Below, piece by piece: positions 1 to 17,574 of a stretch of DNA of 18,913 nucleotides (position 1 is its first letter; each line of letters opens with the position of its first letter). Source of the DNA: Polaromonas sp. (GTDB taxonomy: Bacteria > Pseudomonadota > Gammaproteobacteria > Burkholderiales > Burkholderiaceae_C); assembly GCA_014376885.1 (NCBI GenBank), contig JACMQR010000120.1:1-18913 (forward strand), written 5' to 3'. The notes under the pieces are model-generated. The model was not told where the DNA came from. It did no database searches and worked only from the letters and a program-made list of their open reading frames with translations. The position numbers and the translations under genes are program-made.

Positions 1-129
1 CAGCATGCCAACGCCGCGCTGAACGCGCCGCAGGACCAGTGGCCAGCGCTGGGCATTCACCTGCTGGCGCAGGGCGAAAGCCGGCGGTTACGGGCGCGGT
101 TCATGGTTTTTGAACAGCCACGAGCCTGA
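1..129 (+). CDS. 3' end of an unrecognised protein (partial)
   Basis: The first frame is open from the window edge to a TGA at 127-129 and encodes the last 42 residues of a protein, ending in FMVFEQPRA. Codon third positions are mostly G or C, like the other genes here, so the frame is probably real coding sequence. I do not recognise the family from this short tail, which is amphipathic and Arg-rich with no visible membrane segment. The rest of the gene lies upstream of the window. The 109 nt between this stop and the next gene contain nothing I can name. Confidence 0.45.
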   Translation, partial: QHANAALNAPQDQWPALGIHLLAQGESRRLRARFMVFEQPRA

Positions 130-238
130 CGGCGGCTCGGGCCGCTTCGGTTCGGGCTGGCCGATCATGTTCAAAGCGCTGTCAGGACGCTGCTGGCGCA
201 GGGAACGATGGCATGTGGCATTTATTCCGTTTGAATTT

Positions 239-415
239 ATGAGCAAAAAAATCAACTATGCCGATGAGCCGACGGAGGCCCAGGTCATCGAGGATTTTCT
301 TGCGCCGCCTGAGACGCTTGCCTTTCGCGAGGAAGGCATCAAGGTGACGCTGGCGCCGAGCAAAAAGAGCGTGGATTTTTTCAAGGCCGAAGCGGGAAAG
401 CGCCACACCCAGTAG
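239..415 (+). pseudogene. CopG-type (ribbon-helix-helix) antitoxin, C-terminally truncated
   Basis: The reading frame from ATG 239 gives 58 residues. It starts MSKKINYADEP, then VIEDFLAPPETLAF, then KVTLAPSKKSVDFFKAEA, and ends KRHTQ. This matches the N-terminal and strand/helix-1 portion of small CopG-family antitoxins, DNA-binding repressors that neutralise a partner toxin. Family members usually continue after HTQ with YQRMIR and a second helix of about 20 residues. Here a TAG sits where the Tyr codon is expected. The next two codons still read Gln-Arg, and then the similarity stops. The second helix needed for the dimeric fold is therefore missing. No toxin gene (BrnT-like or other) is visible on either side, so this looks like a remnant. 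No clear Shine-Dalgarno precedes the ATG. Confidence 0.55.
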
Positions 416-533
416 CAGCGAACGAATGGGGGTCAGATTCCAATTAGGCTTCATTTTCAACAGCAGTTTTTGCCAGTCACCCGCGCGCAAACAACCTGCC
501 AATCATAAAATCAGCCAAATAACAAAGGCATTT

Positions 534-1144
534 TTGACCCCAAGCCTTTTCGACGAACCGCCCGCACCTTATGGAGCACCCGCCCCCATCGCGCCAGGCG
601 CCGTGCTGCTGCGAGGCTTCGCCCTCTACCAGGCCGACGCTCTGATCCAAGCCATACAGCAGGTCATCGCGGCTGCGCCTTTTCGCCACCTCATGACGCC
701 CGGCGGGCGCGTCATGTCGGTCGGCATGACCAACTGCGGCATGTTGGGCTGGGTGTCTGATCGGACGGGCTACCGCTACAGCGCCACTGACCCGCTCACC
801 GGCCAACCCTGGCCGCCCATGCCAGCGTGCTTTGCCGATCTGGCGCTGCGGGCGGCGGCCGAGTCGGGTTTTGACAATTTTAAGCCTGACGCCTGCCTGG
901 TCAACCGCTACGAAGCCGGCTCGCGCATGGCGCTGCACCAGGACCGCGACGAAAGCGACCTGGGCGCGCCCATCGTGTCGGTGTCGCTCGGCCTGCCGGC
1001 GGTTTTTTTGTTGGGCGGCCTGCAGCGCAGCGGCCGGGCGGCGCGTCCCGGCTGGCGTTTCACGGCGTGGCGCCGCTGGCCGGCGGCGAGCACCCGCGCC
1101 TGGGGGGCCAGCGCATCAACCTGACGTTTCGCCGCGCGGCCTAG
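534..1144 (+). pseudogene. alkB: alkB, DNA/RNA alkylation-damage dioxygenase, disrupted
   Basis: AlkB is an Fe(II)/2-oxoglutarate dioxygenase that reverses 1-methyladenine and 3-methylcytosine damage. The first frame (about 534-1036) matches the family closely: TPGGRVMSVGMTNCG, then GWVSDRTGYRYS, then the iron-binding LHQDRDE, then IVSVSLGLPAVF. After GGLQRS the frame fails. The conserved C-terminus continues in a different frame from about 1037 to TAG 1142-1144, with SRLAFHG (third iron-binding His) and INLTFRR (2-oxoglutarate-binding Arg). The roughly 15-residue HGDVxVW segment between the two halves is missing. The frame change fits a deletion of about 43-46 nt (1 modulo 3). I prefer the TTG start at 534, with AAAGG just upstream, because it gives the usual N-terminus TPSLFDEPP. 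An ATG at 426 is in frame but lies in non-conserved sequence. Neither product would have a complete active site. Confidence 0.85.
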
Positions 1145-1148
1145 GGCG

Positions 1149-1160
1149 GCGCTGCAGCGC
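1149..1160. repeat. 12-bp perfect palindrome between convergent genes
   Basis: GCGCTGCAGCGC lies in the 17-nt gap between the converging stops of the alkB remnant and the sulP-type gene. It could form a small hairpin on either transcript but has no T-run, so a terminator role is only a guess. Confidence 0.3.
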
Positions 1161-1161
1161 T

Positions 1162-3147
1162 TCAGATGCGGGGCTGGTTGGCCGGGTCGTCGGCGCCGGG
1201 CGCACCCTTGCATTCCCGGAAGATACGGGCGCTGCAATGCCGGCAGATGCCGGGGTCGAGCTTGTGAAAGATCGTGGCGATGGCCGTCGCCTTGTCAGAA
1301 AACTGGTGCCCGGGGCCCAGCACCTCGGTAAAGCCGGTCTTGCGCCACATCTGGACAACCTCCGGACGCGGCCGGTGAAAGTACAGGCCGCCGCCCATGG
1401 CGCGCCGCGCCGCCAGTTCGCCCTCCCACAGCTCGGCACCGGCCAGGTCGATGAAGTTCATGCTCTTGGCCATGACCAGCAAATGCTTTTGCGGCGCTGG
1501 CTGGCTGCGCAGCGCGTGCAGGATGTCGGCGACATGCTGGGTCGCGCCGAAATACACCTCGCCTTCCATTCGTAATAACTTCAGCTGCGGGCACTCCGGG
1601 AGGTAGGCCCCCACGCTCCCCGCTGCGCGTGGTTCGCTGCCCCCCGAGGGGGCGCTGCGCCTGTGGCCCGGCGAAGCCGGTTCCACGGCCCCGGCCGGGG
1701 GGGGAATTGGCCGGCCAAGCTGGTTCTGCGGCCCGGGCTCCGCGCAGGTCTGCGGCGCACCGTCAATCACCACGAACTGCCGCTCTGGCCCGCGGCTGTC
1801 AAAGCCCATGGTGCGCATGGCCGGGCGCGAGGTGCGGTACAGGAACGACATCAGCGACAGCAGCATGCCCAGCAAAATCGCCACTTCCAGCCGGATGGTC
1901 AGGGTGGCGGCCAGCGTGGTCAGCGCTACCGCGAAATCGGTCCGGCTCAGGGCAAACAGCTGGCGCCAGCGCTTCAAGTCGAGCAGGCCCAAGGCCACCA
2001 GCACCAACAGCCCGGCCAGCGCGGCCATCGGGATCTGCGCCAGCACCGGCGCGCTGACGGCCACCAGGCCCAAGAGCAGCAGCGCCGAGAACACCGAGGC
2101 CAGCGGCGTGCGGGCGCCGGCTTCCAGGTTCGGCATAGATCGGTTCATCGAGCCGCAGGACACATAGCTGGAGAAAAACCCGCCAATGAGGTTGGACAGG
2201 CCCTGGCCGCGGAACTCGCGGTTGGCGTCGATGCGCTGGCCCGAGCGCGCCGCCACCGCCCGGGCAATCGCAATCGCCTGGCCCAGCGCGACGATGGTCA
2301 GCGCAAACGCCAGGCCGACCAGGTCGGCCGCCTGCGCCCAGCTGATAGCGGGCAGTTCAAAGCGCGGCCAGGGCGTGGCGATGGCGCCCACCAGGCGCAG
2401 CGCCGGCGCCGGCGCGGCGTTGCCAGCCGCCCACCGGCTCCAGCCCCAGGACAGCGCGGTGGCCACCACCAGCCCGGCCAGCATGTAGGGCCAGTTGCGG
2501 CGGTAGCGGCGCAGCCCCAGGGCCACCGCCAGCGTGACGGCGCCCACGGCCAGCGCCGCCCCACGGGCCTGCGGCAGCTGCCCGAGGACATGCGCCAGCA
2601 CGCCGGCCGCGCTGTGCTCTGCCGACGCGGCCAAGCCCAGCAAGTCGGGCAGCGCATGCACCGCAATCAACAGTGCCGCGCCCGAGGTGAAGCCGAAGAG
2701 CACTGCGGGCGAGATGAAATTGGCCAGCACGCCCAGCCGCAGCGCGCCGATCAGCCACTGCAGCGCGCCGACCATCACGGTGACGGCCAGCGCCAGCTGG
2801 ATGTACGCCGGACTGAACGCCAGGGCCAGCGGCGAGAGCATGGCAAACAGCGCCAGCGAATTGGCGTTCGTCGGACCGGACATGACATGCCAGCTGGAGC
2901 CGAACAGCGCGGCAATGATGCACGGCACGATGGCGGTGTACAGCCCGTATTCGGGCGGCAGCCCGGCCAGCGTGGCAAAGGCAATGCCCTGGGGCAGCAC
3001 CAGCACCGCGCCCAGCAGCCCGGCCATCGCATCGAGCCGCAGGCTGCCGGGCGTGACCTGGCGCACCCAGGGGCCAAACAGGCGCTCGGCCAGCCGACCG
3101 GCAGGGGTCGCGAAAGACAGGGCGGGGTGGGCGTCAGCAGGTTTCAT
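1162..3147 (-). CDS. SulP-family anion transporter with STAS domain and in-frame repeat insertion
   Basis: This is a 661-residue inner-membrane transporter of the SulP (SLC26) family, which moves sulfate, bicarbonate or similar anions. The N-terminal two thirds is membrane-spanning and carries LPQGIAFATLAGLPPEYGLYTA, the SGPTNANS segment and GFFSSYVSCGSMNRS, all family landmarks. A cytoplasmic STAS domain follows at about residues 515-630 (LKLLRMEGEVYFGA, then MNFIDLAGAELWE). The tail has a Cys-rich patch, CRHCSARIFREC. Between VVIDGAPQT and LPECPQLKLL there are about 48 extra residues. They include the 29-codon translation of an 87-bp repeat (1606-1692) and a run of eight G/C at 1697-1704. 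The start ATG overlaps the chrA stop (ATGA, 3144-3147), so translation is probably coupled to chrA. The substrate cannot be fixed from sequence, but an operon with metX-metW makes sulfate plausible. Confidence 0.9.
   Translation of the reverse strand: MKPADAHPALSFATPAGRLAERLFGPWVRQVTPGSLRLDAMAGLLGAVLVLPQGIAFATLAGLPPEYGLYTAIVPCIIAALFGSSWHVMSGPTNANSLALFAMLSPLALAFSPAYIQLALAVTVMVGALQWLIGALRLGVLANFISPAVLFGFTSGAALLIAVHALPDLLGLAASAEHSAAGVLAHVLGQLPQARGAALAVGAVTLAVALGLRRYRRNWPYMLAGLVVATALSWGWSRWAAGNAAPAPALRLVGAIATPWPRFELPAISWAQAADLVGLAFALTIVALGQAIAIARAVAARSGQRIDANREFRGQGLSNLIGGFFSSYVSCGSMNRSMPNLEAGARTPLASVFSALLLLGLVAVSAPVLAQIPMAALAGLLVLVALGLLDLKRWRQLFALSRTDFAVALTTLAATLTIRLEVAILLGMLLSLMSFLYRTSRPAMRTMGFDSRGPERQFVVIDGAPQTCAEPGPQNQLGRPIPPPAGAVEPASPGHRRSAPSGGSEPRAAGSVGAYLPECPQLKLLRMEGEVYFGATQHVADILHALRSQPAPQKHLLVMAKSMNFIDLAGAELWEGELAARRAMGGGLYFHRPRPEVVQMWRKTGFTEVLGPGHQFSDKATAIATIFHKLDPGICRHCSARIFRECKGAPGADDPANQPRI
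1606..1692 (-). repeat. 87-bp GC-rich palindromic element, copy A, inside the sulP-type gene
   Basis: This copy differs from the reverse complement of 5802-5888 at only 3 of 87 positions. It contains inverted repeats CCACGC...GCGTGG (10-nt loop), CCGGC-GAA-GCCGG, and a central C-run/G-run. Relative to the host gene it is inverted compared with the metX copies. The transporter therefore reads the opposite strand, giving GAVEPASPGHRRSAPSGG and onward with no stop. It sits at about residues 486-514, between the membrane and STAS domains. Confidence 0.9.
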
Positions 3148-4592
3148 GGGCTCACCTCAAGCATACTGCGCCTCATGCCAGGCACCTTGGCGCCGCGCGC
3201 CCAGGCCAGGCCAAACCAGCGCAGCAGCAGCCCGGCGCCCGCCGATGCGGCGATGACCGGGATCACGCCCCACTTCAGGCGCCACAGGGCAAACGCGGCC
3301 GCAGCCGCCAGCGCTAGTGCAATCCCGTCGATTTTTTTATCAATTATGCCGTTTGTGCTTGTCGGGTAAGCCACAGCAGCTATGAAAAACAGAGCAAGAT
3401 TGGCAATCACGCCGACCACGGCGGCGGTCACGGCGGCCAGCGGCGCGGTCAGCTTCAGGTTGCCGCGTGTGGACTCGACCCACGGCCCGCCGGCCAGGAT
3501 GAAGATGAACGACGGCAAAAAGGTGAACCAGGTCGCCACACCGGCAGCCAGCGCCGCGCCGGCAAACAGCGCCTGCGGCCCGGCCACCTGCTTGACCCAG
3601 CCGCCGACAAAGCCGACAAACGCCACCACCATGATGAGCGGACCGGGCGTGGTCTCGCCCAGCGCCAGGCCGTCCATCATCTGCGCCGTGGTGAGCCACT
3701 GGTAATGCCCGACCGCCATCTGGTTCACATACGGCAGCACGGCATAGGCGCCGCCAAAGGTCAGCAGCGCGGCCTTGGTGAAGAACCAGCCGATCTGCGT
3801 CAGCGTGCCGCTCCAGCCATAGCTGAAGAACAGCGCCGCCATTGGCGCCAGCCAGAGCGCCGCGCCGGCCAGCAGCACCGCGGCCAGCCGGTGCCGGCTG
3901 AACAGCGCATGGGCCGGCGTCGGCGTGTCGTCGTCAATCAGCGCCGCGCCGCGAACGCCGGGCGCTGAAGCCGCGTGGCCCTTGCCGTGCGCCAGGCTGC
4001 CGGGCGCCACGCGGGCCAGCACGGCGCCGGCCAGCATCGCGCCCAGCACGACCAGCGGAAACGGCAGCTTCAAGGCCCAGATGGCAATGAAGCTCATCGC
4101 GGCTATCGCCCATGGCGCCGGTGCCAGGCGCGGATTGCCCAGGGATTTGCTGGCAATGCGGTGCAGCGCATGCAGCACGATGGCTGCCACTGCCGGCTTG
4201 ATGCCGTAGAAAATCCCGGCTACCAGCGGCTGCTGGCCAAAGGCCATGTAGATCCAGCTCAGCCCGATCAGCAGCGCCAGCGACGGCAAGAAAAACAGCG
4301 TTCCCGCCACCACGCCGCCCCAGGTGCGGTGCATCAGCCAGCCGAGGTAGGTCGCCAGCTGCTGCGCCTCGGGGCCGGGCAGCACCATGCAAAAGTTGAG
4401 CGCATGCAAAAAGCGTTGCTCGGACACCCAGCGGCGCTTTTCCACCAGCTCGCGGTGCATGATGGCAATCTGCCCGGCCGGCCCGCCAAAGCTGATGAAG
4501 CCCAGCTGCAGCCAGAAGCGAAAGGCTTCGGCAAAGGAAACCGGGCGCGGCGCGTCGGACATGATGGGCTTCATGGGCTTCATGGGCTTCAT
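3144..4592 (-). CDS. chrA: ChrA-type chromate transporter
   Basis: This is an inner-membrane protein of the CHR (chromate ion transporter) family, which exports chromate, a toxic analogue of sulfate. It has two homologous halves. The first opens with FWLQLGFISFGGPAGQIAIMHRELVEKRRW and has MVLPGPEAQQLATYLGW. The second has FTKAALLTFGGAYAVLPYV and LGETTPGPLIMVVAFVGF. Length (about 480) fits two-domain ChrA. The start is uncertain. ATG codons occur at 4592, 4583 and 4574 inside a 9-bp tandem repeat, and at 4562 (MSDAPRPVSF, the most family-like). None has a good ribosome site. A TTG at 4613 is also in frame. An AT-richer stretch at 3328-3388 encodes part of the C-terminal membrane region and looks like an absorbed repeat. 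The gene begins 52 nt after metW and overlaps the sulP-type gene by 4 nt. Confidence 0.88.
   Translation of the reverse strand: MKPMKPMKPIMSDAPRPVSFAEAFRFWLQLGFISFGGPAGQIAIMHRELVEKRRWVSEQRFLHALNFCMVLPGPEAQQLATYLGWLMHRTWGGVVAGTLFFLPSLALLIGLSWIYMAFGQQPLVAGIFYGIKPAVAAIVLHALHRIASKSLGNPRLAPAPWAIAAMSFIAIWALKLPFPLVVLGAMLAGAVLARVAPGSLAHGKGHAASAPGVRGAALIDDDTPTPAHALFSRHRLAAVLLAGAALWLAPMAALFFSYGWSGTLTQIGWFFTKAALLTFGGAYAVLPYVNQMAVGHYQWLTTAQMMDGLALGETTPGPLIMVVAFVGFVGGWVKQVAGPQALFAGAALAAGVATWFTFLPSFIFILAGGPWVESTRGNLKLTAPLAAVTAAVVGVIANLALFFIAAVAYPTSTNGIIDKKIDGIALALAAAAAFALWRLKWGVIPVIAASAGAGLLLRWFGLAWARGAKVPGMRRSMLEVSP
3328..3388 (-). repeat. AT-richer short element absorbed in frame by chrA
   Basis: Read in the gene direction this stretch has CATAGCTGCTG, then GCTTACCCGACAAGC, then a stretch ending in an A-run. 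It is clearly less GC-rich than the flanking gene. It codes for IAAVAYPTSTNGIIDKK, which replaces the usual hydrophobic Ala/Leu-rich sequence. The order CATAGCT, GCTTA, AAGC is shared with a similar patch in mnmE at 13941-14010. From memory, abundant AT-rich repeats of this general form occur in Comamonadaceae genomes. That assignment needs a genome-wide search. Confidence 0.45.
4564..4590 (-). repeat. chrA: 9-bp tandem repeat at the chrA start
   Basis: Three perfect copies of ATGAAGCCC (gene direction) occur in tandem, coding for Met-Lys-Pro units. Each copy contains a possible start codon. Gain or loss of a unit keeps the frame and only changes the number of N-terminal starts. Confidence 0.8.
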
Positions 4593-4643
4593 GGGCAGGA
4601 TGGACTCGGGCAAGACGAACTCAGGCGATGCGCCGCGCCGGCT

Positions 4644-5252
4644 TCAGGCGCGCTGCAACTTGAACACCGCCCGGCTGGCGCGCGCATTGGGCCAAAAGCG
4701 GATTTCCCGGCCGTCCTGCAGGCCGAACGAGTCCAGGACCTGCAGCCGGTTCTGGCCGGCCAGCGCGGCAAAGTCCTGCAACGTGCCGACGCGGATGTTC
4801 GGCGTGTCATACCACTGGTAGGGCAGCACCTTGGTGACCGGCATGCGCCCGCGCAGCACCGCCAACCGGTTCGGCCAGTGGCCGAAGTTCGGAAAGGCGA
4901 CGATGCCGATGCGGCCGACGCGGGCAGTTTCCCGCAGCATGACCTCGGCATTGCGCAGGTGCTGCAGCGTGTCGATCTGCAGCACCACATCGAACGACGC
5001 ATCGCCAAACAACGCCAGCCCGTCTTCCAGGTTGAACTGGATCACATTGACGCCGCGCGCCACGCAGGCCTGCACATTGGCGTCGTCGATCTCCACGCCA
5101 TAGCCCGAGCAGCCGCGCGTCCGGATCAGGTGGTCGAGCAGCGCGCCGGTGCCGCAGCCCAGGTCGAGCACCCGCGAACCCTTGGGCACCAGCCGGGCAA
5201 TCGACAACTGGTCGGGCGACAGCGCTCCCTTGGCCTGGATTGCCCCGGTCAC
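4644..5252 (-). CDS. metW: MetW, methyltransferase-fold partner of MetX
   Basis: This is a 202-residue protein with a class I methyltransferase fold. Motif I is [15 protein letters not shown], followed by [21 protein letters not shown] and [12 protein letters not shown], all typical of MetW. MetW is found next to metX in proteobacteria and is thought to be needed with MetX for homoserine acylation; its own reaction is not settled. The start is a GTG at 5252 whose last bases overlap the metX TGA (GTGA, 5249-5252), a common coupling arrangement for this pair. Length and motifs look intact. Confidence 0.95.
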
Positions 5253-6658
5253 AAAGCCACCTTGCTCTCGAAATAAGAGCGAACCACGCCCATGTAGCGT
5301 GCATCATCAAGCAAAAAGGCATCATGGCCATGCGGCGCGTCTATTTCTGCGTAGCTGACATCGACCTGGTTGTCGAGCAGCGCCTTGACGATCTCGCGGC
5401 TGCGCGCCGGCGAAAACCGCCAGTCGGTGGTGAAGCTGACCAGCAAGAATTTAGCCTGCGCTAGCGCCAGCGCGCGACTCAGGTCGCCGCCAAAGTCGGC
5501 GGCCGGATCAAAATAGTCCAGCGCCCGGGTGATCAGCAGGTAGGTGTTGGCGTCGAAGTATTCGGCGAACTTGTCGCCCTGGTAGCGCAGGTAGCTCTCG
5601 ATCTGGAACTCGACTTCCTGCGTGGGGTAGCGGTACAGCGCAGCCCCGGCCCCGGCAGCCGCAGGCGGGCCAAAAACCCCCTCCTCGTTTTCATCAGCAG
5701 GGGCCGCGGAACCGGCTTCGCCGGGCCGCAGTCGCAGCGCCCCCCCGGAAGGCAACGCAGTACCCGGAGCGACAAGCGTGGGGGCCATATCTTCCACAAT
5801 CGGGGCCGCGGAACCGGCTTCGCCGGGCCGCAGGCGCAGCGCCCCCCCGGGGGGCAGCGAACCACGCGCAGCGGGGAGCGTGGGGGCCTTTTTCAACTGC
5901 CGTCCGAATTTTTCGTTCATCACATCGTCGCTCAGGTAGGTGATGTGGCCGATCATGCGGGCGATGCGCAGGCCGCGCTTGGGCAGCACGCCATGCTGGT
6001 AGAAGTGGCCTTCGTGAAAGTCGGGGTCGGTGACGATGGCGCGGCGTGCCACCTCGTTAAAGGCAATGTTCTCGGCGCTCAGGTTGGGCGCGCTCGCCAC
6101 CACCACGGCATGGCGCACCCGGTCGGGGTACTGCAGCGTCCAGGAAAGCGCCTGCATGCCGCCCAGGCTGCCGCCCATGACAGCGGCCAGCGTCCGGATG
6201 CCCAGCGCATCGAGCAGCCGCGCCTGGGCATCGACCCAATCCTGCACCGTGACCACCGGAAAATCGGCCCCGTACACCGCGCCTGTGTCGGGGTTGGTCT
6301 GCATCGGCCCGGTCGAGCCAAAGCACGAGCCGAGGTTGTTCACGCCAATGACGAAAAATCGGTTGGTGTCCACCGGCTTGCCGGGGCCGATCATGCTGCT
6401 CCACCAGCCTTCGGACTTGTCCTGCACCCGGCCGGCCTCGTCAAGATACACGCCAGCGACATGGTGCGACGCATTCAACGCATGGCAGATCAGCACCGCA
6501 TTGGACCGCTCGGCGTTCAGCTGGCCATAGGTTTCATAGCAAAGGTCATAGGCGCGAATCGAAGCGCCGCTGCGCAGCCCCAGCGCTGGGGCGAAATGCA
6601 GGGAGGCCGGCGTGGCAACCAGGTCGGGGGCGGTGGGCACGGTTGTTGAGGGGTCCAC
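5249..6658 (-). CDS. metX: MetX, homoserine O-acyltransferase, with tandem in-frame repeat insertion
   Basis: MetX transfers an acyl group (succinyl or acetyl) to homoserine, the first committed step of methionine synthesis. It is an alpha/beta hydrolase. The nucleophile Ser is in [10 protein letters not shown] (about residue 164), the Asp in FTTDWRFSP (about 412), and the His in [11 protein letters not shown] (about 445). At about 469 residues it is some 80-90 longer than usual. Nearly all the excess lies at residues 258-340, between GRQLKK and the conserved [19 protein letters not shown], in the lid region. It contains two copies of a 29-residue block, APTL...[16 protein letters not shown], encoded by an 87-bp repeat. 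I chose the GTG at 6658. A GTG at 6640 gives a better family-length N-terminus. Longer TTG starts reach into the leader terminator and are unlikely. Whether the acyl donor is succinyl-CoA or acetyl-CoA is not decided here. Confidence 0.93.
5700..5786 (-). repeat. 87-bp GC-rich element, copy C, inside metX
   Basis: This is the second metX copy in the gene direction. It differs from copy B at 12 of 87 positions, 11 of them in the half nearest the metX start, where the CCACGC/GCGTGG hairpin is lost. The CCGGC-GAA-GCCGG hairpin half is intact. It encodes [19 protein letters not shown] and onward. Confidence 0.88.
5802..5888 (-). repeat. 87-bp GC-rich element, copy B, inside metX
   Basis: This is the first metX copy in the gene direction, separated from copy C by 15 nt (codes for IVEDM). 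It has both outer hairpins and a central run of 7 C and 6 G. It is 84/87 identical to copy A in the sulP-type gene, but opposite in orientation relative to its host gene. It encodes [19 protein letters not shown] and onward. Confidence 0.92.
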
Positions 6659-6667
6659 GGTAAACAG

Positions 6668-6776
6668 GGTCCGGGTTGAGCTGGCAGTTGGAAGCGGGAA
6701 GACGACCTGGTAAGGCGCCCAAAAGAAAACCCGGCAGCGCTCAGGCGAGGTCCGGGTTGATGGAGGAAGTCGTCTT
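6668..6776 (-). promoter_or_regulatory. Structured metX leader RNA (candidate attenuator)
   Basis: On the minus strand the leader carries an outer 8-bp perfect stem, AAGACGAC (6776-6769) with GTCGTCTT (6706-6699). This encloses a terminator hairpin. The 12-nt sequence TCAACCCGGACC occurs twice (6760-6749 and 6679-6668). Its core AACCCGG can pair with the single CCGGGTT (6734-6728) from either side, so two mutually exclusive pairings exist. From memory, published comparative genomics of methionine regulation predicted a terminator/antiterminator RNA element ahead of metX or metZ in Betaproteobacteria. This leader has the right position and parts. No SAM-II or SAM/SAH riboswitch core is recognisable. 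Confidence 0.6.
6721..6758 (-). terminator. Rho-independent terminator inside the metX leader
   Basis: AACCCGG (6758-6752), a 17-nt loop, then CCGGGTT (6734-6728), running straight into TTCTTTT (6727-6721). It lies about 60 nt upstream of the metX start and downstream of the candidate promoter, so it would abort transcription before the operon unless the hairpin is prevented. Confidence 0.65.
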
Positions 6777-6825
6777 TGGCCGAACTTGTTACGTGCCCGC
6801 AAGCCAGGCAAATCGGCGCTTTTCC

Positions 6826-6831
6826 AGTATA
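6826..6831 (-). promoter_or_regulatory. Candidate -10 box of the metX promoter
   Basis: TATACT on the minus strand is one base from the sigma-70 consensus. A convincing -35 is not seen at the right distance, so an activator may be needed. Transcription would begin near 6819, giving a leader of about 160 nt. Confidence 0.4.
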
Positions 6832-6905
6832 GCAAGCCCCCCAGGAAATGCGGCTGCCCAGCGCAGGCCCGAGGATCAGCAATGCACCAGTTTAGAGCTG
6901 GCTAG

Positions 6906-6921
6906 CGGCGCATTTCTTGCT
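6906..6921 (+). promoter_or_regulatory. Candidate sigma-54 promoter for the ammonium transporter
   Basis: CGGCGCATTTCTTGCT has GG at 6907-6908 and GC at 6919-6920, exactly 10 nt apart. The TTGCT half fits the -12 consensus and GGC fits the -24 half, though the preceding T and following AC are not matched. Nitrogen-limited control by sigma-54 is common for amt genes. No convincing NtrC site pair is visible upstream. Confidence 0.35.
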
Positions 6922-7025
6922 TCACTTCGGTGCAGTTTTTGAAAAAAATCGGCAATATTCGGAAGAAGTCACAAAAATTCAGAGAATTGCACTGAAAAAC
7001 CACCTATTTACGGAAAGAACAATTT

Positions 7026-8228
7026 ATGGAAGCACTAAAACAGGGCTCGGATGCCCTGTTCATTTTGTTGGGCGGCATCATGGTGCTGGCGATGCACGCC
7101 GGCTTTGCCTTTCTTGAACTGGGCACGGTGCGCAAGAAAAACCAGGTCAACGCGCTGGTCAAGATCCTGGTGGATTTCTCGGTTTCCACCGTGGTTTACT
7201 TTGCCGTGGGTTACGGCGTGGCCTATGGCACCCACTTTTTTGTGGGCGCCGAACAGCTGGCGGCCAAAAATGGCTATGAGCTGGTCAAGTTCTTTTTCCT
7301 GCTGACCTTTGCCGCGGCCATTCCGGCGATTATTTCCGGCGGCATTGCCGAGCGCGCGCGTTTTTATCCCCAGCTGATCGCCACCGCCGTCATTGTCGGG
7401 TTTGTCTATCCGTTTTTTGAGGGCATTGCCTGGAACCAGCACTTTGGCGTGCAGGCCTGGATCAAGTCGCTCACCGGCGCCGAGTTTCATGACTTTGCCG
7501 GCTCTGTCGTGGTTCACGCAGTGGGCGGCTGGCTGGCCCTGCCGGCGGTGCTTTTGCTGGGCGCGCGCAGCAACCGCTACAGGAAGGATGGCGCCATGTC
7601 GGCGCATCCGCCGTCAAGCATTCCTTTTCTGGCGCTGGGTTCCTGGATTTTGGTGGTCGGCTGGTTTGGCTTCAATGTGATGAGCGCGCAAACCCTGGAC
7701 AAGATCTCCGGCCTGGTGGCGGTCAATTCGCTGATGGCCATGGTGGGCGGCACGCTGGCCGCGCTGGCGGTTGGCAAAAACGACCCCGGCTTTGTCTACA
7801 ACGGGCCGCTGGCCGGGCTGGTGGCGGTCTGCGCCGGCTCCGATGTCATGCATCCGCTGGGCGCGCTGGTGGTCGGCAGCGTGGCCGGTGCGCTGTTTGT
7901 CCTGATGTTCACCCTGACCCAGAACAAATGGAAGATCGACGATGTGCTCGGCGTCTGGCCCCTGCATGGGCTGTGCGGCACCTGGGGCGGACTGGCGGCG
8001 GGCATTTTTGGCAGCCAGGCATTGGGCGGCCTGGGCGGCATCCATCTGGGCGCGCAGCTGATCGGCACGGCCATGGGCGTGGCCTGGGCGGTGCTGGCAG
8101 GATTCATCGTCTATGGCGCACTGAAAATGACCATGGGGCTGCGCCTGAGCCAGGAGGAAGAATTTGAAGGCGCCGACCGGTCCATTCACCGGATTGGGGC
8201 GACACCAGAACACGAGGTAAATTGGTAA
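7026..8228 (+). CDS. amtB: Ammonium transporter (Amt/MEP/Rh family)
   Basis: This is a 400-residue inner-membrane channel that conducts ammonium. Eleven hydrophobic segments are expected. Visible landmarks are GTVRKKNQVNALVK, SGGIAERARFYPQ, DFAGSVVVHAVGGW (first pore His) and WPLHGLCGTWGGL (second pore His). It ends with a short charged cytoplasmic tail, EEEFEGADRSIHRIG, a tail type that contacts GlnK-like PII proteins. The start ATG has GGAAAGAA about 6 nt upstream. No glnK gene is next to it; it stands alone between the metX leader and the RRM gene. The family is certain; the exact subtype symbol is by similarity. Confidence 0.95.
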   Translation: MEALKQGSDALFILLGGIMVLAMHAGFAFLELGTVRKKNQVNALVKILVDFSVSTVVYFAVGYGVAYGTHFFVGAEQLAAKNGYELVKFFFLLTFAAAIPAIISGGIAERARFYPQLIATAVIVGFVYPFFEGIAWNQHFGVQAWIKSLTGAEFHDFAGSVVVHAVGGWLALPAVLLLGARSNRYRKDGAMSAHPPSSIPFLALGSWILVVGWFGFNVMSAQTLDKISGLVAVNSLMAMVGGTLAALAVGKNDPGFVYNGPLAGLVAVCAGSDVMHPLGALVVGSVAGALFVLMFTLTQNKWKIDDVLGVWPLHGLCGTWGGLAAGIFGSQALGGLGGIHLGAQLIGTAMGVAWAVLAGFIVYGALKMTMGLRLSQEEEFEGADRSIHRIGATPEHEVNW

Positions 8229-8416
8229 CTATTTACAAAAAACGAAACTTCAAGAACCTGGTGGCTTTGACCGTTCCAATACGGCAGCCCGACCATGGCC
8301 TGCGGGATGTTAAAAAATGGCTCGGGAGGTAAGTGTTTCTACCTCGCTATTTGTGACAACCGGGCAGCGCTGCGCCATTGCGGGCCTTGTTTGCCAAAAA
8401 ACCGCCGGCTAAGATT

Positions 8417-8450
8417 CACCGGCAAATGCGAGGTTTGCATTGTCCCGGTG
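8417..8450 (+). repeat. Long imperfect hairpin between amtB and the RRM gene
   Basis: CACCGG (8417-8422) pairs with CCGGTG (8445-8450). Inside, CAAATGC pairs with GCATTG with one bulged A, and TC is bulged on the 3' side. It has no T-run. It may end amtB transcripts or mark a regulatory site. Confidence 0.45.
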
Positions 8451-8481
8451 ACCGGTCCGTTTCGCGCGCTACAGCGGTAGG

Positions 8482-8510
8482 TTGAAGAAATGTTGTGCTT
8501 TCGGTATCCC
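8482..8510 (+). promoter_or_regulatory. Weak candidate promoter of the RRM gene
   Basis: TTGAAG (8482-8487), a 17-nt spacer, then TATCCC (8505-8510). The -35 is good and the -10 poor. The predicted leader would be about 30 nt, T-rich and ending in AGAGGAG. Confidence 0.3.
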
Positions 8511-8547
8511 GTCGCTTTTGTTTTTATGTTTTAGAGGAGTTCCCTTC

Positions 8548-8958
8548 ATGGGCAACAAGCTATACGTCGGCAACCTGCCCTATACGGTGCGCGACGAAGA
8601 CCTGCAGCAGTCCTTTGGCCAGTTCGGCTCCGTCACCAGTGCAAAAGTCATGATGGAGCGCGAGACCGGCCGCTCCAAAGGCTTTGGATTTGTCGAAATG
8701 GCCAGCGACGCCCAGGCGCAGGCGGCCGTCAACGGCATGAATGGCCAGTCTTTGGGCGGCCGCAACGTGGTCGTGAACGAAGCCCGTCCCATGGAGGCGC
8801 GAGCGCCCCGCAGCAGTGGCTTCGGGGGTGGCACGGACGGCGGCGGCGCTGGCTACGGCGGCCGCTCATCAGGCGGCGCCAGCGATGGCGGCTTTCGCAG
8901 CCCCTACGGCGGCAGCCGCTCTGGTGGCGGTGGCAGCGGCGGCCGCAGCGGCTACTGA
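8548..8958 (+). CDS. Small RRM RNA-binding protein with glycine-rich tail
   Basis: This is a 136-residue protein with a single RNA recognition motif at residues 1-80. RNP2 is LYVGNL and RNP1 is SKGFGFVEM, both intact. A low-complexity tail rich in Gly, Ser and Arg (GGGTDGGGAGYGGRSSGG and onward) ends in RSGY. This matches the small bacterial RRM/glycine-rich group often linked to cold or stress RNA handling; the RNA targets are unknown. The start ATG at 8548 has a strong AGAGGAG 8 nt upstream. An earlier in-frame ATG at 8482 would add a 22-residue hydrophobic extension but lacks a ribosome site, so I reject it. Confidence 0.93.
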   Translation: MGNKLYVGNLPYTVRDEDLQQSFGQFGSVTSAKVMMERETGRSKGFGFVEMASDAQAQAAVNGMNGQSLGGRNVVVNEARPMEARAPRSSGFGGGTDGGGAGYGGRSSGGASDGGFRSPYGGSRSGGGGSGGRSGY

Positions 8959-8984
8959 ACGCTGCCAGCAGCGTGGTCCGGCTG

Positions 8985-9010
8985 CCTGAAAAAACCGCTT
9001 TTTTTTCAGG
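8985..9010. terminator. Bidirectional terminator between the RRM gene and lptC
   Basis: CCTGAAAAAA (8985-8994), loop CCGC, then a T-run and TCAGG ending at 9010: a 10-bp stem with A-run and T-run on opposite sides. It lies 27 nt after the RRM stop and could also end lptC transcription from the other strand. Confidence 0.75.
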
Positions 9011-9073
9011 TCAGCCAGCCACTAGTGAACCGCCGCAGCAGCCCTTCTCAAATGGCTGGAGCCGCCGCTTGAC

Positions 9074-9790
9074 TCAGCGCCGGGGCGCGGCGCGCGCCGG
9101 CATGGCAGCGGCGGATTGCGGCATCAGCAGGCCGCGCACCCGGCCTGTGAGCAGCGCCACCTGGTCCAGGTTGCTGTAGCTGAAAACATTTCCGGTGAAC
9201 TGGTCGGTTCCACGGATCAGCAGCACCGGCAGGTGCGACTGGACCCGATCTTCGTTCAGGAACGCATGCAGGAATTCACCCCGGAACTCAAGCTGCGGCG
9301 TTTCTTTTTGCCCGGCAGCCTGGCTCGCCAGCCGCACCACCCGCGCATTACCGGTCAGCTGCACTTCGGAGCCGTCACCGTTGGCGTAAGCCCGGTTGGC
9401 CGTCGCCGTGGTGAGTTGCCGTTGGAGATTGACACTGCGAATCCGGGCTTGGTCAATTTCCAGAATGTCGGTGTCGGGAAAATGGCGCGCCTGCGAGCCG
9501 GCCACCTCGCTTTGGAGATGGCCGCTGGCGTCAAATGTTTTGATGGTGAAGTTCTGCATGAAGTAATCGGCCTCATGGCTGACCGCCGGGGCCGCTTCGG
9601 GCGCACTGAGCAGGGGCGTGTTGCGCACCAGCCAATAGGTTCCCAGGGCCAGGGCACCCATCATCACAAGCGGCATGTAAATGGCCGCGCGGTCCCAGAG
9701 AAGCCACAGCTGGCGCCACGCACGATGCCCCCGGCGCGGCGCGGCCGGGCGGCCGGCACCGGTTGGCAAAGCAGGCAGGTGTCTTGTCAT
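9074..9790 (-). CDS. lptC: LptC, LPS export complex protein
   Basis: LptC is the bitopic inner-membrane protein that passes lipopolysaccharide from LptB2FG to LptA. One N-terminal membrane segment (IYMPLVMMGALALGTYWLV) follows a basic, Pro-rich start. A beta-jellyroll periplasmic part follows, with YFMQNFTIKTFDASGHLQSEV, ILEIDQARI and EVQLTGNARVVR typical of the family. I start at ATG 9790 (MTRHLPALP), which overlaps the kdsC stop by 4 nt (ATGA). The protein is 238 residues. The Ala/Arg-rich C-terminus (AMPARAAPRR) is not conserved sequence. No lptA or lptB follows, which is unusual. Confidence 0.88.
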   Translation of the reverse strand: MTRHLPALPTGAGRPAAPRRGHRAWRQLWLLWDRAAIYMPLVMMGALALGTYWLVRNTPLLSAPEAAPAVSHEADYFMQNFTIKTFDASGHLQSEVAGSQARHFPDTDILEIDQARIRSVNLQRQLTTATANRAYANGDGSEVQLTGNARVVRLASQAAGQKETPQLEFRGEFLHAFLNEDRVQSHLPVLLIRGTDQFTGNVFSYSNLDQVALLTGRVRGLLMPQSAAAMPARAAPRR

Positions 9791-10404
9791 TCGAGGTACT
9801 TGCGCAGCAGGTCGGCATACAGGCCGCTGGCGACCAGCAGTAAATCGCAAAACTCGCGCACCGCGCCCTGGCCGCCCGGCAGGCGCGTGACATGGTCGGC
9901 TCGCTGCCTGACCTCCGGATGGGCGTTGGCTGGCGCGCAGCTCAACGCCGCCCGGCCCATCATCGGCAGATCGGGCCAGTCGTCGCCCATGGCCGCAGCT
10001 GCCGGCCAGTCCAGCCCCAATGCCCGCAGCGTCTGCTCGGCAGCCGGCCGTTTGTCTTCCGTGCCAAAGTGCGCCTGGGTGATGCCCAGCGCCTGCAACC
10101 GAGCGCGCAGCACCGAGCTGTCCCGGCCGGTGATGACGACGGGCGTGATTCCCGCTTTTTGCAGCAGTTTCAGGCCGTGGCCGTCCAGCGTGTTGAACCG
10201 CTTGATGGTCTCGCCGGACGAGCTGAAGCCGCCCGCCTGCCCGGCCTGCTCATGCCCGGCCGGGTACTCCGAAAAATACAGGCCGCCATCGGTGAGCACG
10301 CCATCGACATCAAAAAAAGCCACCTTGATGCCCTGGCCGCGCAGCAGCAACTCCGGCGGGAAATTCAGGGAAGGCGTGAAGGCTTGCGCCGGCTGGACGG
10401 ACAT
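9787..10404 (-). CDS. kdsC: KdsC, 3-deoxy-manno-octulosonate-8-phosphate phosphatase
   Basis: This HAD-family phosphatase (205 residues) removes phosphate from Kdo-8-phosphate on the way to the LPS core sugar Kdo. The catalytic motif is FFDVDGVLTDGGLYF, followed by IKRFNTLDGHGLKLL, VITGRDS and the Mg-binding GDDWPDLPMM. About 15 residues (PAGHEQAGQAGGFSSS) sit between LYFSEY and GETIKRF, longer than in many homologues and in a surface-loop position. It lies 1 nt after kdsD and overlaps lptC, so the three genes form one transcription unit. Confidence 0.93.
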   Translation of the reverse strand: MSVQPAQAFTPSLNFPPELLLRGQGIKVAFFDVDGVLTDGGLYFSEYPAGHEQAGQAGGFSSSGETIKRFNTLDGHGLKLLQKAGITPVVITGRDSSVLRARLQALGITQAHFGTEDKRPAAEQTLRALGLDWPAAAAMGDDWPDLPMMGRAALSCAPANAHPEVRQRADHVTRLPGGQGAVREFCDLLLVASGLYADLLRKYLE

Positions 10405-10405
10405 G

Positions 10406-11398
10406 TCAGATGACCTTGGCGCGCATCAGGTCGTTGGTGTTCAGGGCGCCGCACAGCGCGCCGCGCTCATCGACCACCAGCACGCTGTTGATGCGGTGCT
10501 GCTCCATCAGCGCAGCCGCCTCGACTGCGAGCGCGCTGCGCCTGACCGTGTGGGGGCGGGCATGCATCACGTCAGCCGCCCGCAAAGCGCGCAAATCCAC
10601 GCCTTTTTCAACCAGCCGGCGCAAATCGCCGTCGGTGAAAATGCCCAGCACCTGCCCCTGGCCATCCACCACAGCGGACGCGCCCAGGCCCTTGGCGCTC
10701 ATTTCCCGCATCAGCTCGGTAAATGGGGTGCCGGCCGCCACCTGCGGGACCGCCGGGCCACTGCGCATCACATCGCTGACATGGGTGAGCAGCTTGCGGC
10801 CCAGCGCGCCGCCAGGGTGCGAGCGGGCGAAGTCTTCCGGCCTGAAGCCGCGGGCGTCCAGCAGCGCCACCGCCAGGGCGTCGCCCATGGCCAGCTGCGC
10901 CGTGGTGCTGGCGGTCGGCGCCAGGTTCAGGGGACATGCCTCGCGGGCCACGCTGGTGTCCAGCGTGACACGGGACTGCAGGGCAAGCGTGGAGCGCCGG
11001 CCGCCGGTGATGGCAATCAGCGCAATACCCAGGCGGCTGAGCACCGGCAAGATGGCCATCAGCTCTTCACTTTCGCCGCTGTTGGAGATGGCCAGCACCA
11101 CATCGACCGCCTGAATCATGCCCAGGTCGCCATGGCTGGCCTCGGCGGGATGAACAAACATGGCCGGCGTGCCGGTCGAAGCCAGCGTTGCCGCAATTTT
11201 CCGGCCGATATGACCGCTTTTGCCCATGCCCATGACCACCACCCGCCCGCGGCAGGCCATCAGCAGCTCGACCGCCTGCACGAACTCGGCGCCGACCCGG
11301 CTGGCCATCTCCAGCACGGCAGCGGCTTCGACCTCGAACGTCATCCTTGCCAGGCTCAAGGCCTGGTCAGCATTCACGGTGGCGGCTTGACAACTCAT
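10406..11398 (-). CDS. kdsD: KdsD/KpsF-type arabinose-5-phosphate isomerase
   Basis: It interconverts ribulose-5-phosphate and arabinose-5-phosphate, the first step of Kdo synthesis. The 330 residues contain a SIS sugar-isomerase domain (about 40-175; GRVVVMGMGKSGHIGRKIAATLAS, HPAEASHGDLGM, ISNSGES), then SHPGGALGRKLL, then two CBS domains (about 205-330) ending VLVVDERGALCGALNTNDLMRAKVI. It is first in the kdsD-kdsC-lptC unit and divergent from the Kef-type gene. No Shine-Dalgarno is visible before the ATG. A TAGAAT box lies 6 nt upstream, so the transcript may start at or next to the start codon. Confidence 0.94.
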   Translation of the reverse strand: MSCQAATVNADQALSLARMTFEVEAAAVLEMASRVGAEFVQAVELLMACRGRVVVMGMGKSGHIGRKIAATLASTGTPAMFVHPAEASHGDLGMIQAVDVVLAISNSGESEELMAILPVLSRLGIALIAITGGRRSTLALQSRVTLDTSVAREACPLNLAPTASTTAQLAMGDALAVALLDARGFRPEDFARSHPGGALGRKLLTHVSDVMRSGPAVPQVAAGTPFTELMREMSAKGLGASAVVDGQGQVLGIFTDGDLRRLVEKGVDLRALRAADVMHARPHTVRRSALAVEAAALMEQHRINSVLVVDERGALCGALNTNDLMRAKVI

Positions 11399-11404
11399 GG
11401 CTGC

Positions 11405-11410
11405 ATTCTA
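11405..11410 (-). promoter_or_regulatory. Candidate -10 box directly upstream of kdsD
   Basis: TAGAAT on the minus strand is 6 nt before the kdsD ATG. If used, the message would be nearly leaderless. No good -35 is seen. The divergent gene shows the weaker box TACCAT at 11473-11478, 6 nt before its own ATG. Confidence 0.3.
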
Positions 11411-11484
11411 TCGACGCGCCAGCCAGGCGGCCGGGCTGGTGGAAACCGGCTGGCCAACGAAAAACCATCGGCTACCATGCACCA

Positions 11485-13470
11485 ATGAGCGCCCTTGAAC
11501 TGACCCTTTTGTACCTGCTGGCCGCAGTGCTTGGGGTGGTCATTTGTCGTTCCTTCAAATTGCCCCCCATGCTGGGCTACCTGGCTGTGGGCGTGGTGAT
11601 CGGCCCGCATGCGATGGCGCTGGCCCAGAACTCCGACAGCGTGCGCCATCTGGGCGAGTTCGGTGTCGTTTTCCTGATGTTTGTCATTGGCCTGGAATTT
11701 AACCTGCCCAGGCTGCGGTCGATGCGTCGCCATGTGTTCGGGCTGGGCTTTTTGCAGGTGGGGCTCACCATCCTCCTGGTGACCCTGGGTTCGTGGCTGC
11801 TGGCTCGCCTGGCGCCAGACCTGTGGCAAGTGCCGTGGCAGACGGCGCTTGCCCTGTCGGGCGCCATGGCCATGAGCAGCACGGCGATTGTGGTCAAGCT
11901 GCTGGCCGAGCGCCTGGAGCTGGCGTCCGAGCATGGCAAGCGAGTGATGGGCGTGCTGCTGTTTCAAGACCTGGCCGTCGTTCCCTTGCTGGTGCTGATT
12001 CCCGCGCTCGGCTCGCCTGCCGATGAGCTGTTTCTCAGCCTGGGCGTGGCCGGGTTGAAGGCAGCGGTCTTGCTGGGCCTGCTGCTGACCGGCGGGCAGC
12101 GGGTCATGCGCTGGTGGCTCACGCTGGTGGCGCGGCGAAAAAGCGAAGAGCTGTTTGTGCTCAACCTCCTGCTGGTGACGCTGGCGCTGGCCTGGCTGAC
12201 CGAACTGGCGGGCTTGAGCCTGGCCCTGGGCGCTTTCATTGCGGGCATGCTGATCTCCGAGACACAGTACAAGCACCAGGTGGAAACCGACATCCGGCCG
12301 TTCCACGATGTGCTACTCGGCCTTTTTTTCATCAGCGTCGGCATGCTGCTTGACTGGCACCAGGTTGTCGAGCATTGGCCGCTGGTGCTGTTGCTGCTGA
12401 CCGTGCCGGTGTTTTTCAAGCTGCTTCTCGTGACAGCGCTGGCCCGCAGCCTGGGCGCAACAGCAGGCGTGTCCCTGCGCACCGGCCTTTACCTGGCCCA
12501 GGCGGGCGAGTTCGGCTTTGTGCTGCTGTCGCTGGCGCAGGGGCACCAGCTCGTTCCGCCCGGCCTGATCAATCCCATTTTGGCCAGCATGGTGCTGTCC
12601 ATGCTGGCCACGCCCTTCATCATCCTGTATGCCAACCGCATTGTGATGAAGCTGGTGTCCAGCGAATGGCTGCAGCAGTCGCTGCAGATGACCACCATCG
12701 CCAGCAAATCGATGAACGCCAACCGGCATGTGATCATTTGCGGCTATGGCCGGTGCGGCCAGAACCTGGGCCGCATGCTGGAGCGGGAAAGCATTCCCTA
12801 CATTGCGCTTGACCTCGACCCCGATCGGGTTCGCCAGGCGGCGGCCGCCGGCAACCCAGTGGTGTTCGGCGATGCGGTCCGGCTGCAGTCGCTCATCGCG
12901 GCCGGCTTGGTGCGCGCCAGCGCCGTGGTGGTGACCTACCTCGACACGGCCAGTGCCCTGAAGGTGCTGGCCAACACCCGCACCCATGCGCCGACGGTGC
13001 CGATCATTGTCAGGACCGTCGACGACCGCGATCTGGAAAAACTCAAGGCGGGCGGCGCGACGGAGGTGGTTCCGGAAGCCATTGAAGGCAGCCTGATGCT
13101 GGCCAGCCATGCGCTGGCGCTGGTGGGCGTGCCGATGCGCCGCGTGATACGGGTGGTGCAGGACCAGCGGGACGCGCGCTACAACTTGCTGCGCGGATTT
13201 TTTCGCGGCGCCGACGATGACACCACCGACGAGCTCGACCAGGAGCGCCTGTTCACGGTCACGCTCGTGCCCGGCCTGGACGCCATCGGCAAGACGCTCG
13301 GGGAAATGGCATTGCAGGCCATCGCGGTGCGGACTGTCAGCTTGCGCCGCAGCAACGGCAAAACCCTCAAGGCGCTTGGCGAAACCAGGCTCGAAGCCGG
13401 GGACACGCTGGTTCTGCTGGGAAAGCCCGAAGCGCTGGCGCTGGCCGAGCAGCAGCTGTTGAAGATTTAG
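11485..13470 (+). CDS. KefB/KefC-like monovalent cation:proton antiporter
   Basis: This is a 661-residue CPA2 antiporter, a Kef-type potassium efflux system. A 12-13 segment membrane domain spans about residues 1-385, with MLGYLAVGVVIGPHAM, GAMAMSSTAIVVKLLAE, MGVLLFQDLAVVPLLVL, LALGAFIAGMLISET and FFISVGMLLDW. An RCK (TrkA-N) domain follows, with the nucleotide-binding GYGRCGQNLGRML at about 419 and acidic ALDLDPDR. A TrkA-C domain closes the protein (about 570-655). I start at ATG 11485 (MSALELTLLYLL); earlier in-frame codons read antisense to kdsD. No ribosome site is evident. Kef proteins are gated by glutathione adducts; the sequence alone does not tell KefB from KefC or from glutathione-independent relatives. 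Confidence 0.92.
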   Translation: MSALELTLLYLLAAVLGVVICRSFKLPPMLGYLAVGVVIGPHAMALAQNSDSVRHLGEFGVVFLMFVIGLEFNLPRLRSMRRHVFGLGFLQVGLTILLVTLGSWLLARLAPDLWQVPWQTALALSGAMAMSSTAIVVKLLAERLELASEHGKRVMGVLLFQDLAVVPLLVLIPALGSPADELFLSLGVAGLKAAVLLGLLLTGGQRVMRWWLTLVARRKSEELFVLNLLLVTLALAWLTELAGLSLALGAFIAGMLISETQYKHQVETDIRPFHDVLLGLFFISVGMLLDWHQVVEHWPLVLLLLTVPVFFKLLLVTALARSLGATAGVSLRTGLYLAQAGEFGFVLLSLAQGHQLVPPGLINPILASMVLSMLATPFIILYANRIVMKLVSSEWLQQSLQMTTIASKSMNANRHVIICGYGRCGQNLGRMLERESIPYIALDLDPDRVRQAAAAGNPVVFGDAVRLQSLIAAGLVRASAVVVTYLDTASALKVLANTRTHAPTVPIIVRTVDDRDLEKLKAGGATEVVPEAIEGSLMLASHALALVGVPMRRVIRVVQDQRDARYNLLRGFFRGADDDTTDELDQERLFTVTLVPGLDAIGKTLGEMALQAIAVRTVSLRRSNGKTLKALGETRLEAGDTLVLLGKPEALALAEQQLLKI

Positions 13471-13491
13471 GCACTCCTGTCTGCTTTTGTA

Positions 13492-13544
13492 GGAACGGCG
13501 GTTCCCTGCGGCCCGGCTTGCTGCCCTGGCGGCAAGCCCGGGCC
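13492..13544. terminator. Two adjacent hairpins between converging kef-type gene and mnmE
   Basis: GGAAC-GGCG-GTTCC (13492-13505) is followed by GGCCCGGCTTGC (13510-13521) pairing with GCAAGCCCGGGCC (13532-13544) with one bulge. The second stem is very GC-rich. Neither has a T-run, so classical intrinsic termination is uncertain, but position and strength suggest a two-way transcription stop. Confidence 0.5.
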
Positions 13545-13564
13545 ACGCGCAGCAGGAATGCCGG

Positions 13565-15001: not shown

Positions 15002-15021
15002 GGAGCCTCAATGCACAATGG

Positions 15022-15047
15022 AAAAAGGCCGCTTGGCGGCCCTTTTT
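15022..15047. terminator. Bidirectional-type terminator between yidC and mnmE
   Basis: AAAAA, GGCCGC, loop TTG, GCGGCC, C, then TTTTT. On the minus strand the hairpin follows the yidC stop at once and is trailed by a T-run, as for an intrinsic terminator. Only about 20 nt separate it from the mnmE ATG, leaving no room for a separate promoter. Confidence 0.8.
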
Positions 15048-15048
15048 G

Positions 15049-17410: not shown

Positions 17411-17439
17411 AGGAAGACCGCGTGGCTGCGGCTGGAACG

Positions 17440-17574
17440 TCAGACAGCCAGGCGCTTGCGGCCCTTGGCGCGACGGGCGTTGATCACGGCACGGCCACCG
17501 CGGGTCTTCATGCGGACCAGGAAGCCGTGGGTGCGTGCGCGGCGCACTTTGGAAGGTTGGTAGGTGCGTTTCAT
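17440..17574 (-). CDS. rpmH: Ribosomal protein bL34
   Basis: This is a 44-residue, highly basic 50S subunit protein: [18 protein letters not shown], then [20 protein letters not shown], ending KRLAV. It is complete and of standard length. First gene of the rpmH-rnpA-yidD-yidC unit, preceded by a good sigma-70 promoter. Confidence 0.98.

Follow-up and report, generated by a model that had tools for sequence, protein, structure and literature searches.

How does one short GC-rich sequence come to lie three times, and in both orientations, within the coding sequence of two different genes? The question is raised by an 18,913-nt stretch of a Polaromonas assembly (GCA_014376885.1, contig JACMQR010000120.1, positions 1 to 18,913; hereafter the window), in which a sulP-type gene harbors one copy of the element (A) and metX harbors two (B and C, Table 1). 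Polaromonas includes cultured species such as P. glacialis. The answer favored here, at a probability of about 0.75, is that a short, non-autonomous mobile repeat is at work in Polaromonas and related bacteria, and that in part of Polaromonas it enters genes in frame. According to an excerpt of PMC10969869, Rickettsia is the best-known setting for frequent in-frame insertion of mobile sequences into conserved genes.

Copies in the window and across genomes

The three copies are in frame within two genes and occur in both orientations, in agreement with a preliminary description of this DNA. Counted over 87 positions, there are 3 differences between A and C, 12 between B and C and 15 between A and B; the preliminary description was right about B and C, and had attached the value of 3 to the wrong pair, A and B. 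Copies 4 kb apart show 97% complementarity over 89 nt which, together with the 48 matches found across the assembly, makes their likeness far greater than chance allows.

Table 1. Coordinates of the element copies, their hairpins and their host genes in the window.
Feature	Position	Strand	Description
Copy A of the element	1606-1692	-	87 nt; in frame, sense orientation, inside the sulP-type gene
Copy B of the element	5700-5786	+	87 nt; in frame, antisense to metX
Copy C of the element	5802-5888	+	87 nt; in frame, antisense to metX; 102 nt start-to-start from B
Spacer between B and C	5787-5801	+	15 nt; at the place of the pyrimidine-rich leader of other copies
Hairpin 1 of copy C	5803-5837	+	13 pairs, 7 changed on both sides across copies; also in the RNAalifold prediction
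Hairpin 2 of copy C as drawn	5841-5855	+	6 pairs, none changed on both sides
Hairpin 3 of copy C	5862-5875	+	5 pairs, 3 changed on both sides across copies; also in the RNAalifold prediction
sulP-type sulfate permease gene (host)	1162-3147	-	open frame of 661 aa; PF00916; insertion C-terminal of the Pfam match
metX open frame, homoserine O-acetyltransferase (host)	5249-6835	-	528 aa; PF00561; insertion after KFGRQL
Probable remnant of a second, truncated copy beside A	1693-1740	-	reads PGPQNQLGRP in SulP

Searched with C, the source assembly (G000; 2.59 Mb, 401 contigs, 78% complete) yields at least 48 matches, of which the strongest apart from C itself has E 1e-35; a consensus query yields at least 49. 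The best 40 of 106 and 40 of 100 first-look candidates, respectively, were scored. These are the further genomic copies that the preliminary description had called for. When the best 40 first-look candidates are scored in each of two other genomes, at least 52 matches occur in G036 and at least 45 in G159. G036 is taken to be a congener, Polaromonas glacialis R3-9 (NZ_KL448323.1), and close relatives of the window MetX are named Polaromonas in public records.

The element is also widespread beyond the genus. In an evenly drawn GTDB sample of the family, with the best two candidates scored per genome, it is present at 1e-6 in 283 of 399 genomes and 112 of 141 genera. Outside Polaromonas, many of the matches listed are confined to roughly query positions 28-95, indicating that related variants exist. 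In a class-wide sample, 2 of 369 genomes match, namely the source genome and G174, a member of the same family; another member, G188, gives no match. An exact 20-mer of the element occurs in at least 120 stretches of public genomes, with titles naming Variovorax, Hydrogenophaga, Polaromonas, Acidovorax, Rhodoferax, Rubrivivax, Aquabacterium and others, including a putative, metagenome-assembled Stagnimonas. A local cluster of three exact 20-mer matches within 8 kb is seen in Hydrogenophaga aromaticivorans (L105), and five plasmid records contain weak matches to the element.

Filled, empty and expanded sites

Across congeners the metX site is empty, filled in either orientation, filled in tandem, or decayed. 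Classed by eye, 30 MetX loci comprise 12 empty and 12 antisense sites, 3 with antisense remnants or mosaics and 3 with a sense element (1 clear, 2 decayed). In a set of 119 close MetX proteins, biased to relatives of the query, 81 have a recognizable tag and 38 do not, 3 of the latter carrying inserts longer than 35 residues. One empty protein (P0012) is 95% identical to the query over the matched 55%. In the solved MetX structure 2pl5, the two flanks lie at residues 243 and 250, about 7 residues apart, and the insert would thus occupy a loop.

Other hosts repeat this picture. Five of the 13 Polaromonas genomes parsed for SulP carry the element or a remnant (G000, G014, G020, G001, G019) and 8 are empty. 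The 21 PurL loci consist of 5 full, 2 shortened and 2 remnant sites, 1 unrelated insert and 11 empty sites (G036 among them). Of 12 FemAB_like genes, 2 are empty. The empty orthologous sites that the preliminary description had proposed to look for are therefore present in metX, sulP and purL. Such alleles support the entry of the element into new sites, followed by inheritance and decay; the act of entry would be a transposition. The unrelated insert (L296, PurL of G004) reads SPAGRGSDPQFPPLPRGEGWGEG and is perhaps a second repeat family using the same PurL loop.

Inserts can also expand. SulP of G019 (L200, minus strand of the locus) contains five in-frame, nearly identical 28-residue units derived from the element. 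In FemAB_like, the place that holds the long form in other species is occupied by a shorter relative of the element in tandem, in-frame units: three in G008 (L328) and about 2.5 in G030 (L343). An insert can therefore become a repeat region.

Reading frame and host genes

The criterion by which sites are assigned to genes demands one frame and is circular as a test of frame, for which reason a separate test was run at sites with coding sequence close on both sides of the element and an upstream frame open into it. With a script that favors a same-frame reading whenever one is available on either strand, and with 7 source-genome sites near contig ends dropped, the frame is kept at 20 of 21 testable sites (8 same and 1 different in the source genome, 12 and 0 in G036, none testable in G159). 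This is what the preliminary description expected of in-gene copies. It had also proposed to test whether they are always multiples of three in length and free of stops; the frame result favors this, and 38 of 51 copies overall are stop-free in all six frames. The openness in sense and antisense frames that it pointed out is real but not special, as 60% of dinucleotide shuffles of the element are likewise stop-free in six frames. Being expected from composition, openness is rejected as evidence of a selected property.

In the source genome, hosts are MetX (two tandem copies), SulP, RecQ, an M20 peptidase, FemAB_like, an MdtB-type RND permease, a molybdopterin-binding/CinA-like protein, PurL and a malate/lactate dehydrogenase; additional probable hosts have the element close to the gene start or to a contig end. 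G036 shares four of these hosts (MetX, SulP, FemAB_like and M20) and adds a cyclopropane-fatty-acid-synthase-like protein, a ligase-associated DEXH helicase, a fatty-acid hydroxylase, Mpl, PriA, a GlcD-kind FAD oxidase, GlnE, RsmA/KsgA, a P-type ATPase and an alpha/beta hydrolase. The profile match is split in two around the insert in several hosts (e.g., RecQ, Ldh_2, CMAS, Mpl), and the insert lies outside the Pfam match in SulP, the fatty-acid hydroxylase and the alpha/beta hydrolase. If translated, as the kept frame predicts, the host proteins would carry segments of mobile DNA.

Placement between and inside genes

Sites of three genomes were classed by the codon content of their flanks, with a model trained on source-genome genes, tandem copies merged and 6 source-genome sites near contig ends left out; the sites are the best-scoring matches rather than all copies. 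Pooled, 94 of 118 sites are intergenic and 23 are in genes, with 1 unclear. The 37 sites of the source genome comprise 9 in genes, 24 codirectional intergenic and 4 convergent; the 42 of G036 comprise 14 in genes, 26 codirectional intergenic, 1 convergent and 1 divergent; and the 39 of the congener G159 comprise 25 codirectional, 11 convergent, 2 divergent and 1 unclear. With sites treated as independent, though four host genes are common to the source genome and G036, codirectional intergenic copies are mostly antisense to the genes (56 vs. 19 sense, p=2e-5), convergent placements exceed divergent ones (16 vs. 3, p=0.004), the orientation bias is reversed inside genes (16 sense vs. 7 antisense by hand count, Fisher p=0.0003), and the in-gene share differs between the source genome plus G036 (23/79) and G159 (0/39, p=4e-5). 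A first placement count, later revised with clustered sites, gave 46 antisense, 16 sense, 22 convergent, 0 divergent and 8 unclear. Earlier in-gene screens at other thresholds found 10 of 47 copies in the source genome and 0 of 31 in G159.

The element is a dispersed repeat, located mostly 3′ of genes, that also enters genes. Insertion into genes, on which the preliminary description centered, is strong in two Polaromonas genomes; it is absent in the third, and most sites are intergenic.

Unit length and structure

Of 53 hits, 10 were set aside as partial, rearranged or truncated at a contig end, which left 43 source-genome copies for alignment. By hand count, the core measures 88 nt in 24 copies, 87 nt in 13 (including A, B and C) and 89 nt in 6, so that the length of 87 nt given in the preliminary description fits the window copies, but the commonest is 88 nt. 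Profiling the flanks of 44 copies shows strong conservation at upstream positions -6 to -2 (C, C/A, A, G, C/T) and mostly pyrimidines at -12 to -10; downstream conservation is slight, and no constant target-site duplication is visible in the profile. Judged against this profile, the spacer between B and C would be equivalent to the pyrimidine-rich leader of other copies. In PurL, 64 residues separate the start of CPFAVIG from the end of the PV.MP motif in carriers G000, G010 and G019 and 30 in the 11 empty congeners, a difference of 34 codons or 102 nt. From this comparison and the 102-nt spacing of B and C, the inserted unit is estimated at about 102 nt, probably 88 nt plus a leader of 14 nt. 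As a multiple of three, this length helps to keep the frame.

The term palindromic, applied earlier to the element, holds only in so far as hairpins are present: rather than one palindrome, the element is a row of separate hairpins. Its two ends share no exact inverted match longer than 4 nt, and no terminal inverted repeats were found. Across the 43 copies, 97.1% of the cells in three hairpins are paired, and 59 cells are compensatory, compared with 15.2 +/- 2.7 in shuffles and 1-13 in slid versions. The covariation is carried by hairpins 1 and 3, both of which are present in the RNAalifold consensus, where columns 51-55 pair with 91-95 in place of hairpin 2. Hairpin 2 is uncertain because of this alternative pairing and because none of its pairs is changed on both sides. 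No Rfam match occurs within the window at the gathering threshold.

Origin and spread of the copies

Several processes could have produced such a repeat. Local duplication, or an ancestral repeat of the host genes, would fit the tandem arrangement of B and C. It is very hard to credit given the dozens of copies elsewhere in the genome, the empty orthologues at metX, purL and sulP, and the closer likeness of C to A than to B, observations that also uphold the preference of the preliminary description for mobile insertion. For the family as a whole, local duplication is refuted by the dispersed copies and the empty orthologues. A structured RNA or 3′-end signal that spreads by recombination or gene conversion among homologous copies, rather than by transposition, would explain the covarying stems and why copies lie so preferentially at gene 3′ ends and in one orientation (56 vs. 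19 and 16 vs. 3). However, presence and absence among congeners inside unrelated conserved genes with different flanks is hard to obtain by homologous recombination, and this origin is improbable. Equally improbable is that the element is a miniature inverted-repeat transposable element (MITE) derived from a classical DDE insertion sequence and that its terminal repeats have been eroded. MITEs in general resemble it in size, in copy number and in having tandem or inverted neighbors, and a review (PMC10969869) lists MITEs in Polaromonas, citing Mattes 2008, but the ends match over just 4 nt and the 44 flanks contain no constant target-site duplication.

A better case, although still a rather unlikely one, can be made for a family of repetitive extragenic palindromes (REP) or bacterial interspersed mosaic elements (BIME) moved by the RAYT-like Y1 transposase of nearly every Polaromonas genome. 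A Y1_Tnp match is found in 60 of 61 Polaromonas genomes, with exactly one in 48 of 61 (hand count), and a single copy per genome is expected of a domesticated transposase. The hairpins covary as in REP/BIME, and the placement 3′ of genes fits as well. Against this, none of 26 RAYT-like loci, inspected up to 1.5 kb on each side and less at contig ends, has a copy of the element beside it, the longest match being 16 nt (L249), and the REP tags GTAG, GTGG and CGTC are absent from the terminal windows at both ends of all 43 copies. Moreover, by hand comparison, 12 of 20 listed genomes from the 107 family members without Y1_Tnp carry the element, and 13 of 20 listed from the 116 without the element have Y1_Tnp; an association between element and Y1_Tnp is weak, if there is any. 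The RAYT-like gene (L195, L231-L255) is usually the sole one of its Polaromonas genome, with no element beside it. One of the five IS200-type loci (L229) matches the element over 44 nt.

Under the favored reading of a non-autonomous mobile repeat, a core of 87-89 nt with hairpins and a pyrimidine-rich leader of about 14 nt would be inserted as one unit and copied in trans by a putative enzyme, possibly through a single-strand process, as the hairpins suggest. New copies would survive mostly directly 3′ of genes and, in part of Polaromonas, within genes too. Survival within genes may be due to a unit that is often stop-free in all frames, keeps the frame, and is placed in loops or at protein ends. 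Once in a gene, the element would persist across species and decay by substitutions and in-frame deletions, and would sometimes expand in tandem into a new repeat region.

A number of results weigh against this reading. No enzyme is linked to the element, as the 26 RAYT-like loci illustrate. Target-site duplication and exact ends are not fixed from the comparison of empty and filled sites, since the host loops are variable. Genes are entered at none of the 39 sites of G159 and at 1 of 56 copies in contigs of named genomes of several genera, a value that may be too low as the codon model comes from source-genome genes. The source genome and G036 have inserts in four of the same genes (MetX, SulP, FemAB_like and the M20 peptidase), so that their in-gene counts are not independent. 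As to structure, hairpin 2 as drawn is missing from the RNAalifold prediction, its 5′ arm pairing with the 3′ end of the element; further pair types number 15 vs. 18.1 in shuffles, the one of five structure measures that is unfavorable; and the folding energy is no lower than in shuffles (z -0.89 to 0.75), so that the claim of structure rests on covariation. AlphaFold modeled MetX poorly (mean pLDDT 50.4, 23-28 in the insert region, shallow alignment), and the model was set aside, which leaves the 2pl5 gap as the basis for the loop location.

A more speculative idea, which is doubtful at present, is that in part of Polaromonas the element serves as a standing source of new protein sequence. 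On this view, every insertion would supply a preformed loop of some 34 codons, in one orientation or the other; different species would refill, invert, trim or tandemly expand the same loops, and some of these would be kept as functional repeat regions, the five 28-aa units of SulP in G019 being a possible example. In practical terms, gene annotation and protein models of the Polaromonas group contain repeat-derived segments. Because filled and empty alleles of MetX, SulP, PurL and FemAB_like exist among congeners, with inserts also in RecQ, PriA and RsmA, the way in which mobile DNA adds sequence to working proteins becomes directly testable.

Other features of the window

Two further features were noted by eye. 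Positions 540-1143 (+) look like an oxygenase gene, presumably of AlkB type from a familiar motif; its last part appears to be in a different frame from about 1040, and it seems to be a frameshifted gene or to contain a sequencing error. At 4563-4600, nearly four units of the tandem 9-base repeat atgggcttc lie at the start of the minus-strand gene 3144-4613, to which they may offer several start codons or add residues.

Relation to known systems

No earlier description of the element was found in the literature, although the MITEs reported for Polaromonas JS666 (Mattes et al., 2008) could be one, and none of six genus-name terms was found in PMC3733652 by term search. A repeat present in 283 of the 399 sampled family genomes may so far be undescribed.

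Like REP/BIME/REPIN elements with RAYT, the Polaromonas element combines a high copy number with hairpins that show compensatory changes (1 and 3) and, for its intergenic copies, a location adjoining gene 3′ ends. It differs in the absence of a GTAG-type end tag, in lying apart from the RAYT-like gene, in its longer unit, and in its many in-gene copies in two genomes (23 of 118 sites). Neisseria is also a betaproteobacterium. Correia/NEMIS (107-bp form) and ERIC provide open frames fused in frame within genes, and possess terminal inverted repeats and a terminal TA, as far as the sections of PMC2229807 on them extend, whereas complementarity between the ends of the Polaromonas element is 4 nt. 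PARCEL, in turn, are palindromic coding units of 25 residues that occur in tandem in proteins (PMC2996958, in excerpt); in the same excerpt they are amphipathic and many are located in membrane-targeted proteins of other taxa, whereas the Polaromonas unit is mainly intergenic and enters conserved enzymes.

The closest parallel is that drawn in the preliminary description, with Rickettsia palindromic elements (RPE), which in the portion of PMC2229807 devoted to them are 105-146 bp long and occur in 19 reading frames, the gmk product being translated and active. Both are, going by that portion, short repeats that form hairpins and occur not only in intergenic DNA but also, in frame, within conserved protein-coding genes. 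In-frame insertion into many unrelated conserved genes (23 of 118 sites, frame kept at 20 of 21) and presence outside genes (94 of 118) are RPE-like, and the likeness holds for this in-frame and intergenic habit. It does not hold for the long stem-loop with terminal inverted repeats, in place of which the Polaromonas element has separate hairpins and an end complementarity of 4 nt. The Polaromonas element further differs in belonging to another bacterial class, in being GC-rich with several hairpins, in occupying one gene site in both orientations and in expanding in tandem in frame; the unrelated sequence claimed earlier is a distinction by description, not by sequence comparison. Taken together, the Polaromonas element appears to work like an RPE that has no terminal repeats.

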